A DNA stretch of 43,321 nt, taken from NCBI GenBank assembly GCA_011192155.1, contig DUEK01000049.1, positions 1 through 43,321 on the forward strand, written 5' to 3'. The notes under the pieces are model-generated. The model was not told where the DNA came from, did no database searches, and was given only the letters and a program-made list of their open reading frames with translations. This stretch comes from Thermoflexia bacterium (lineage in GTDB: Bacteria > Chloroflexota > Anaerolineae > B4-G1). This document shows, piece by piece, positions 1,102 through 7,308 of the stretch (within the stretch, counting starts at the first letter, position 1; every line of letters begins with the position of its first letter). The translations under genes were made by a program, and so were the position numbers.

Positions 1102-1145
1102 GTAGCCGCGCTTTCCATAGCGCGCGGTATGGAAAGCGCGACTAC
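1102..1145. repeat. Inverted repeat gtagccgcgctttccata / tatggaaagcgcgactac (18-bp arms, one mismatch)
   Basis: Arms 1102-1119 and 1128-1145 read directly from sequence; lies between two minus-strand genes, may double as terminator. Confidence 0.85.
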
Positions 1146-5060: not shown

Positions 5061-5432
5061 ATGGATAGCATGATAACAACAGTATGGAACGAGACGCGGG
5101 GTGAACGGGTGCTAGGGCGTGCGCGTCGTTGCGCCAGTTTTCTCTGTCGCCTGCGGGGACTGACTTTCCGGCGCTCCCTGGATGACGACGAGGGGCTGTT
5201 GTTGGTGGGACGCCGGGAGAGCCGCGCCGACACTGCAATTCACATGTTCTTTGTCTTTTTTCCCATCGCCGCTGTATGGTTGGATCAGAGCGGGCGGGTG
5301 GTGGATGCGCAGTTGGCGCGACCTTTCCGTCCACTCTACGTCCCTCGCGCGCCAGCGCGCGATGTATTGGAAGGCCCTCCCGCTTTGCTGAAGCGGGCGC
5401 AAATAGGGGACCAATTAAGGTTTGGAGAGTGA
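5061..5432 (+). CDS. DUF192 family protein
   Basis: CRLRGLTFRRSLDDDEGLLLV...IHMFFVFFPIAAVWLDQSGRVVD. Confidence 0.8.
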   Translation: MDSMITTVWNETRGERVLGRARRCASFLCRLRGLTFRRSLDDDEGLLLVGRRESRADTAIHMFFVFFPIAAVWLDQSGRVVDAQLARPFRPLYVPRAPARDVLEGPPALLKRAQIGDQLRFGE

Positions 5433-5436
5433 TCGA

Positions 5437-6906
5437 GTGAATCGAAAGACCGCCTTTTTTTTGATCGTTCTGTTGTTGATCAGTGTTTCGGCGACGACGG
5501 CCCTGGCCCAATCGGACGGACCGTTACCACAAGATGTGGTGCACATTGTTCAGCGAGGCGAGACACTGTTCTCCATCGCTCAACGATACGGCTTGACAGT
5601 GGACGGCATCGCACACGCCAACGGTATCCCCGATCCCCGTCAGATTTACGTTGGACAACGGCTCATCATCCCCGGCGGAGAGAGGGGGGAGGGCGTGCAG
5701 GAAACGGCCCCCTACGTGGTTCAAGCGGGCGACACGCTGTCATCTATTGCCAGACGTTATCATACTACTTGGCAGTCGCTGGCCCAAATCAACAGAGTGC
5801 TTTCTCCCAACGGGCTTTACGTGGGGCAAGTCGTCCAAGCGCCAGTACTCGGCGCGCCTGTCGATGTGCTCGTTGTTGATAAAGAGGCGGCTGCCCGTCC
5901 GCCAGTGGGTGGAGGCACGCTCTACACCGTACGCTCCGATGATACACTGTTCCACGTTGCGTTACGCTATGGCGTCTCGCCGTGGACGTTGGCGTCCGCC
6001 AGCCGCCTCGCAAATCCAACCCTGATCTATCCGGGGCAAGAGCTAGTGATCCCCAACAGCGAGCCGGGTTTTTTGCCTGCTCCTTTTGCCTTTGTCGAGG
6101 TGCGGCCATTACCGGTGGCCCAGGGGATACCAATGGCCATTGTCGTGCATACGACGGAACCCGTTGCGCTGGAGGGAAGACTATTTGGGCAGGATGTACA
6201 CTTTGCTGAAGAAGGAGGCGTATACTACGGCTTGGTGGGCGTGCACGTGTTCACTGAACCCGGCCTGTACCAATTGGAATTGACTGCCATGGATGACGCA
6301 GGGCGCAGGACGGTGATTACAACAGGCATAATCGTGCAGGACGGACACTTTGGCTATGAGCGAATTGACATGCCTGACGGCCTCAATAACCTGCTCGACC
6401 CGGCCATAATCGCCGCGGAGCGCGAGCGACTCAACGCGTTGCGCTTTACGTTTACGCCAGAGCGACATTGGGAAACGCCGCTTCAACGCCCGTGCGTGGG
6501 TGCGATTTCCTCTTACTTTGGCACTCACCGGGCCTACGGCGACGGCCCCTACACCAGCTACCACAGCGGCGTAGACTTTCGAGCACCGACGGGGGTGCCG
6601 GTACATACGCCTGCCGGGGGCATTGTGGTGCTGGCCGAGCCACTGATTGTGCGAGGCAACGTCGTTGTGGTAGATCACGGTTGGGGCCTGCTGACGGGCT
6701 ATTGGCACCTTGCAGAGATCAATGTTCAGGTTGGTCAACAGATTGCGACGGGGGATATGATTGGCAAGGTGGGCAGTACAGGGTTATCCACGGGCGCACA
6801 CCTACATTGGGAGGTGTGGGTTGGCGGAGTCAGCGTGAACGGTGTGGAGTGGTTGGAAGAGTTCCAGCTTGAACCAGAGTCCGAGTGGCGAGCGGTTGGT
6901 GGTTAG
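5437..6906 (+). CDS. LysM-repeat M23 family metallopeptidase
   Basis: Signal peptide, three LysM motifs (VHIVQRGETLFSIAQRYG; YVVQAGDTLSSIARRYH; YTVRSDDTLFHVALRYG), M23 motifs HSGVDFRAPTG and HLHWEVWV. Confidence 0.95.
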   Translation: MNRKTAFFLIVLLLISVSATTALAQSDGPLPQDVVHIVQRGETLFSIAQRYGLTVDGIAHANGIPDPRQIYVGQRLIIPGGERGEGVQETAPYVVQAGDTLSSIARRYHTTWQSLAQINRVLSPNGLYVGQVVQAPVLGAPVDVLVVDKEAAARPPVGGGTLYTVRSDDTLFHVALRYGVSPWTLASASRLANPTLIYPGQELVIPNSEPGFLPAPFAFVEVRPLPVAQGIPMAIVVHTTEPVALEGRLFGQDVHFAEEGGVYYGLVGVHVFTEPGLYQLELTAMDDAGRRTVITTGIIVQDGHFGYERIDMPDGLNNLLDPAIIAAERERLNALRFTFTPERHWETPLQRPCVGAISSYFGTHRAYGDGPYTSYHSGVDFRAPTGVPVHTPAGGIVVLAEPLIVRGNVVVVDHGWGLLTGYWHLAEINVQVGQQIATGDMIGKVGSTGLSTGAHLHWEVWVGGVSVNGVEWLEEFQLEPESEWRAVGG

Positions 6907-6907
6907 C

Positions 6908-7201
6908 GGGCCAGAACCCTAACGTGTTCTTCTTTCGGCAACAGCAATTCCCGTTATGGGGGAAAAGTCAGGTCGTAGCGCGATTTCGCAATCACGCAGG
7001 GCGCTTTACGCGGAAAAATAGACGCGATTTGGAAATCGCGGCTACAAAACGGGAATTGCTGTTTCGGCAAGAAGCTGCTCAAGCGCGGGTTCTGGCCCCG
7101 TTTGCAGTTTGTTGGGAGTGGGCCAGAACCCTAACGTGTTCTTCTTTCGGCAAGAAGCTGCTCAAGCGCGGGTTCTGGCCCCGTTTGCAGTTTGTTGGGA
7201 G
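6908..7201. repeat. Two tandem copies of an identical 82-bp palindromic unit; copy 1 (6908-7118) interrupted, copy 2 (7120-7201) intact
   Basis: Copy 1 minus 6942-7070 equals copy 2 base for base; each unit bounded by IR gggccagaaccc / gggttctggccc. Confidence 0.95.
6942..7061. mobile_element. MITE-like 120-bp element with 14-bp perfect TIRs and 9-bp TSD tttcggcaa
   Basis: TIRs cagcaattcccgtt (6942-6955) / aacgggaattgctg (7048-7061); TSD 6933-6941 and 7062-7070; empty site in adjacent copy at 7145-7153. Confidence 0.92.
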
Positions 7202-7308
7202 CGCCCAAAATTCTTGCAGCTCCTGCCAATGTAAAGGGAAAGTAAAAGCAGTAGTTTGGCGGGTTTGAGCCTTTTCACAAGCTGTTCTTAGCAGCAGCCT
7301 CCCTTGAT

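Follow-up and report, generated by a model that had tools for sequence, protein, structure and literature searches.

A 120-bp MITE carrying a GTAG-tagged REP pair, inserted in one of two tandem palindromic units in a Thermoflexia genome

The DNA analysed here (referred to as the window) is a stretch of 43,321 nucleotides from a Thermoflexia bacterium (contig DUEK01000049.1). Two bases 3′ of the TAG stop codon (6904–6906) of a LysM/M23 peptidase gene (5422–6906) begins the first of two copies of an 82-bp palindromic unit, both read on the forward strand. Copy 1 spans 6908–7118 and is interrupted; its left part (34 bp; 6908–6941) and right part (48 bp; 7071–7118) are 100% identical to 7120–7153 and 7154–7201, respectively, which together make up the uninterrupted copy 2 (7120–7201). 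A single base (t, 7119) separates the two copies, and four other full-length copies at 96–98% identity, along with several partial copies, are present in the genome. The unit folds into a 12-bp stem (GGGCCAGAACCC/GGGTTCTGGCCC) enclosing a smaller CTTCTT...AAGAAG hairpin (MFE of −32.4 kcal/mol), and the insertion point lies in the loop of the small hairpin.

The insert in copy 1 is 120 bp long (6942–7061, forward strand) and is bounded by perfect 14-bp terminal inverted repeats (TIRs; 14/14 positions), CAGCAATTCCCGTT on the left (6942–6955, forward strand) and AACGGGAATTGCTG on the right (7048–7061, reverse strand). It is flanked by an exact 9-bp target-site duplication (TSD), TTTCGGCAA, at 6933–6941 and 7062–7070 (both forward strand). 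The core of the insert (6975–7045) has the form GTAG-CCGCGATTTCGCAATCGCG ... CGCGATTTGGAAATCGCGG-CTAC and consists of two GTAG-tagged palindromes in inverted orientation: a left REP, GTAGCGCGATTTCGCAATCACG (6975–6996, forward strand; consensus GTAGCCGCGATTTCGCAATCGCG), and a right REP, CGCGATTTGGAAATCGCGGCTAC (7023–7045, reverse strand). This organization has been named REPIN or BIME (PMC3116915, PMC3733652). The element is too short to hold a transposase gene of its own, and the one open reading frame of at least 100 residues listed across it (6885–7268) has both termini in flanking DNA and simply reads through. A preliminary description of the locus had reported two identical palindromic units 1 bp apart with one interrupted, a 120-bp insert with perfect 14-bp TIRs and an exact 9-bp duplication, and all of this is confirmed to the base. 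The idea that the site contains its own empty-site control also holds. TTTCGGCAA occurs once in the uninterrupted copy and twice in the interrupted one.

The insert belongs to an abundant family. In the genome of the window (a 3.41-Mb MAG assembly in 178 contigs, 83% complete), the terminal 14-mer gave 83 + 87 matches with at most one mismatch, compared with 0 + 1 for the reversed control; these counts imply that the genome would hold about 80 elements. A DNA search of the genome with the element gave at least 42 matches, 40 of which are near full length (40 of 129 candidates scored), and the window copy has 97–98% identity to about 20 other full-length copies. Among the 36 distinct full-length copies that were read, the length is 121 bp in 32 and 120 bp in four; 13 match the 121-bp consensus exactly, and a target duplication of 8–9 bp flanks 27, with no clear TSD seen in the other nine. 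The 29 TSD sequences of 9 bp are all distinct and have no strong consensus. The abundance of the 14-mer relative to the control, together with 26–27 further copies that each have their own, differing 9-bp duplication, shows that the window element is not a chance arrangement. With TIRs at both ends, a TSD of fixed length and variable sequence, many near-identical dispersed copies and ends in common with an autonomous transposon family, albeit one found in other species, the 120-bp insert is one copy of a MITE, a non-autonomous DNA transposon.

Three insertions of the family have paralogous empty sites: that in the window, that at locus L012 (empty at L167; 97% identity over 66 bp) and that at L003 (empty at L168/L174; 96%). 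The recent mobility suggested in the preliminary description therefore stands at the level of the family, given these three sites, the many exact 9-bp TSDs and the 13 of 36 copies that match the consensus. The window copy itself is not among the youngest, since it differs from the consensus at three positions (38 of the consensus is deleted, and 54 and 79 are substituted). Elsewhere in the genome, two MITEs (L011, 1407–1500; L022, 1622–1719) share an internal truncation point (CGCGCAGGGC), and each directly adjoins a complete MITE. An 874-bp TIR pair in L012 proved to be coincidental, one of its ends being imperfect.

No full-length element was found by DNA search in genomes of the same family; the end-pattern search gave 55 TIRs in one of the genomes (G003) in which the DNA search had given no full-length copy. 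An Rfam search gave a sub-threshold match only, and a literature search for the terminal sequence gave only unrelated matches among the matches listed. The family is an abundant and apparently undescribed MITE family of Anaerolineae, tied through its ends and TSD length to a family of DDE transposases (see below).

The position of the insert in a hairpin loop raises the question of whether the element prefers such loops, with the palindromic unit being a directed target. Two further copies lie in comparable surroundings, one (L012) within a free GTAG-REP pair and one (L009) in a diverged unit related to the 82-bp one. However, over 28 empty sites the local stem scores are not above background (mean of 3.68 versus 3.59; Mann–Whitney p of 0.65–0.70), and the TSD sequences lack a strong consensus, so that directed targeting of hairpins is unlikely. 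The L012 copy (1501–1621) is a consensus MITE with the TSD GCGAGGTAT, and its empty paralogue lies at approximately 16262–16327 of L167. The L009 copy is also contained in L070 (1501–1750), where its internal position in the diverged unit is nearly that seen in the window.

The two window units share features that bear on the order of events. In both, unit positions 38 and 75 are G (GAAGCTG, TTTGTTGGG), whereas A at 38 and C at 75 are found in five complete or almost complete units elsewhere in the genome. On the strength of these two shared private substitutions, the window units are each other's closest relatives and would have arisen by local tandem duplication. Outside the window, the full-length units have AGT before them and C after them, without a visible TSD, and a search of ten further genomes from the same family gave no 82-bp unit. 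A tandem duplication followed by the insertion, as the preliminary description had it, is supported by the shared substitutions and by the presence of one versus two copies of TTTCGGCAA. As a clock, 82 identical base pairs are weak. Two identical units, one of them interrupted, would likewise result if the element had entered a single 82-bp unit, the unit had been duplicated together with its insert and the insert and one TSD copy had then been lost exactly from unit 2. This sequence of events is quite unlikely, as it requires an additional, precise excision, whereas a duplication and one insertion account for the site in fewer steps. From the sequences compared, local duplication first and insertion second is therefore the best-supported history, and the site cleanly preserves a single transposition, with the interrupted and the empty target side by side.

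The ends of the MITE lead to a candidate source of transposase. In a class-wide pattern search, the 14-mer was enriched in five genomes (55 matches in G003, 40 in G278, 12 in G126, 11 in G139 and seven in G074), with no control matches in any of them; the places read in the enriched genomes yielded further MITEs with the same ends. In another genome (G220, locus L081), an insertion sequence (IS) end, CAGCAATTCCCGTTATGGGGTG, the MITE counterpart of which is CAGCAATTCCCGTTATGGGGGA, lies some 190 bp past a DDE-like reading frame. Complete insertion sequences were traced by a protein search with this frame, followed by reading of the loci. That at L124 (G303) is 1,818 bp long, has the ends CAGCAATTCCCGGT/CAGCAATTCCCGTT and the TSD AATGTTACC, and encodes a 433-residue protein that matches PF01609 at E = 3.9e-7. 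Those at L125 (G294; 1,597 bp, TSD CTCAATGCA) and L139 (G107; 1,446 bp, CAGCAATTCTCAGT, TSD CTATTTGAC) are likewise complete, as are those at L138, L137 (8-bp TSD) and L135. Plasmids of Calothrix (L204; TSD GAAATATAC) and Saccharobesus (L206; TSD TAAATAAAG) provide examples with the same ends, and a Gloeothece homologue is annotated as an `ISNCY family transposase'. The cut-off for DDE_Tnp_1 (PF01609) is passed by the L124 and L125 proteins, and 11 aligned transposases have invariant D124 (in SLDG), D214 and E332/E334 (in RWKxENE), which are the putative catalytic DDE residues. The elements at L139, L137, L138, L131–L134 and L204 form a coherent, little-annotated IS group of Anaerolineae and cyanobacteria with CAGCAATTC ends and mostly 9-bp target duplications where these are detectable; their DDE transposases of 430–470 residues fall mostly below the Pfam and NCBIfam cut-offs.

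In the genome of the window, 83% complete, protein and profile searches found no intact partner transposase, and a Pfam search for ISAs1/IS4-type transposases (PF13808, PF01609) gave nothing at E ≤ 0.001. Two transposase fragments are present, both of a different branch (77–83% identical to L146), and no CAGCAATTCCCG-like end was found near either. Multi-copy insertion sequences are often lost from MAGs. Of the two items that the preliminary description proposed to search for, the TIRs are abundant in the genome itself, and the candidate transposase is found in other Anaerolineae and in cyanobacteria and not in intact form in this incomplete genome. The shared ends and the shared TSD length suggest that the MITE would be mobilized in trans by this DDE IS family.

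Free REPs of the type seen in the MITE core are also present in the genome (window 1102–1145, L173 11692 and L169 11797 are examples), with no match to the reversed patterns. The window example is an inverted GTAG-tagged pair (GTAGCCGCGCTTTCCATAGCGCG...GGTATGGAAAGCGCGACTAC) of the MITE-core type without a TIR shell. At L158 (G000:C33), a RAYT-like gene (1226–1925; Y1_Tnp, 1.1e-5) that is apparently broken by a frameshift has GTAG REPs on both sides (GTAGCCGCGGTTTCC.../GTAGCCGAGGTTTCC...), and the locus appears to be a decayed REPtron. The MITE is now the main carrier of its REP: of the 23 places in the sampled 443 kb that match the REP sequence of the MITE itself, 20 are within or next to TIRs. 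A second, unrelated family of near-identical 151-bp repeats in the genome has the TIR CTGGAGTCTGGC and the core GTTCGTAG...CTACGAAC, with no visible target duplication. Copies lie at L166 8465–8615, L170 11770–11920, L174 6051–6201 and 15918–16068, L175 16458–16608 and L177 19427–19577, and the L175 copy adjoins or lies within an older CAGCAATTCCCGTT MITE of the HGW-Chloroflexi-1 type.

The inverted GTAG REP pairs found free in the genome and beside the RAYT relic would also be expected if the REP pair were itself the mobile unit, moved by a RAYT (HUH tyrosine transposase), with the CAGCAATTCCCGTT ends being flanking DNA that was carried along. A REPIN ends at its REP tags and has no target duplication. 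The full copies here end exactly at the 14-bp TIR rather than at GTAG, and 9-bp duplications flank most of them; IS200/IS605-type transposition is not known to make a target duplication. The RAYT-like gene beside the REPs is, moreover, broken, and we regard movement of the pair by a RAYT as highly improbable. Misassembly of the tandem repeat or of the insert from unlinked repeat copies is more remote still: the genome is a MAG in many fragments and holds multiple copies of both parts, but the window MITE has its three differences from the consensus and the units their two private substitutions, the TSD is the unit's own sequence, 26–27 other insertions have the same anatomy, and a matching 9-bp duplication would not be produced by collapse or by a chimera.

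We therefore favour transposition of a non-autonomous DDE MITE, moved in trans into unit 1 of a pre-existing tandem with the REP pair as a passenger, and consider this account as a whole to be very probable. The two palindromic units would already have been in tandem when a DDE-family transposase, supplied in trans, mobilized the MITE from a donor site and inserted it across a 9-bp stagger in the loop of unit 1, and gap repair would have left TTTCGGCAA on both sides of it. As the tandem units would have preceded the insertion, unit 2 records the empty site. The GTAG-REP pair in the core would now be spread by the MITE as passenger palindromes, a role suggested by the likeness of the core to the REPs that flank the broken RAYT gene.

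MITEs with the same ends and GTAG...CTAC cores are present in other species of Anaerolineae (G003, G074 or HGW-Chloroflexi-1, G159, G126 or SuakinDeep_MAG45_1, and SpSt-1225), and the tag positions were measured in nine representative elements, eight of them from these five genomes. In all eight non-window elements GTAG is at nucleotide 24, and in six of the eight the last CTAC ends 43 nucleotides from the right end; the exceptions are one G074 copy (56) and one G126 copy (35, owing to an extra chance CTAC beyond that at 43). Other G074 and G126 copies that were read have longer right-hand spacers. The core lengths differ among the species, from 56 bp to about 130 bp (SpSt-1225), two genomes (G171 and G278) have shells with the same ends but no GTAG core, and the MITEs align well across species in the ends only. 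The corresponding tag positions in the window family are 34 and 16, and this difference suggests that its REP pair was probably captured separately. The apparently new feature is that the REP tags keep a near-constant position in a shared shell across genera in which the cores differ, and this near-constancy may reflect either exchange of cores or common descent. A modular element, in which DDE IS ends form a shell, GTAG-tagged REPIN `cartridges' are exchanged at the GTAG/CTAC tags and REPINs orphaned of their RAYT keep spreading by DDE transposition, is a possible but tentative reading. If REP cores have been captured repeatedly, a REPIN whose own transposase has decayed could keep spreading as a hitch-hiker in a DDE MITE.

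Like the DDE-IS-derived MITEs Nezha, NEMIS and MITEAba12, the window element is small and non-coding, has perfect TIRs and a TSD of fixed length, exists in tens of near-identical copies and shares its ends with an autonomous IS family; it differs in that no autonomous partner was found in its own (incomplete) genome and in having a GTAG-REP pair as its core. The ISNCY-annotated, DDE_Tnp_1-like insertion sequences with CAGCAATTC ends share its terminal sequence and 9-bp target duplication, but are 1.4–1.9 kb in length and encode a transposase of 430–470 residues, whereas the window element encodes none. The inverted GTAG-tagged pair recalls REPINs and GTAG REPs with their RAYTs (PMC3116915, PMC3733652), as may the RAYT-like relic of this genome, which has REPs of apparently that type on both sides. 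At most of the sampled places, however, a DDE-type TIR shell with its TSDs surrounds the pair, and the REP pair of this genome would thus move by a mechanism other than that of REPINs. A MITE containing a GTAG REP is not unheard of: in Coxiella burnetii, the similarly sized MITE QMITE2 (150–190 bp) has 7–11-bp direct repeats and includes a GTAG REP (PMC5896051; also PMC10969869). Compared with QMITE2, the window MITE has a 14-bp TIR, a 9-bp TSD, an inverted REP pair and the ends of a DDE IS family, and its related shells occur in several genera with differing REP sequences. The mechanism of transposition is itself not new; the REP-pair core and the well recorded insertion are the points of note.
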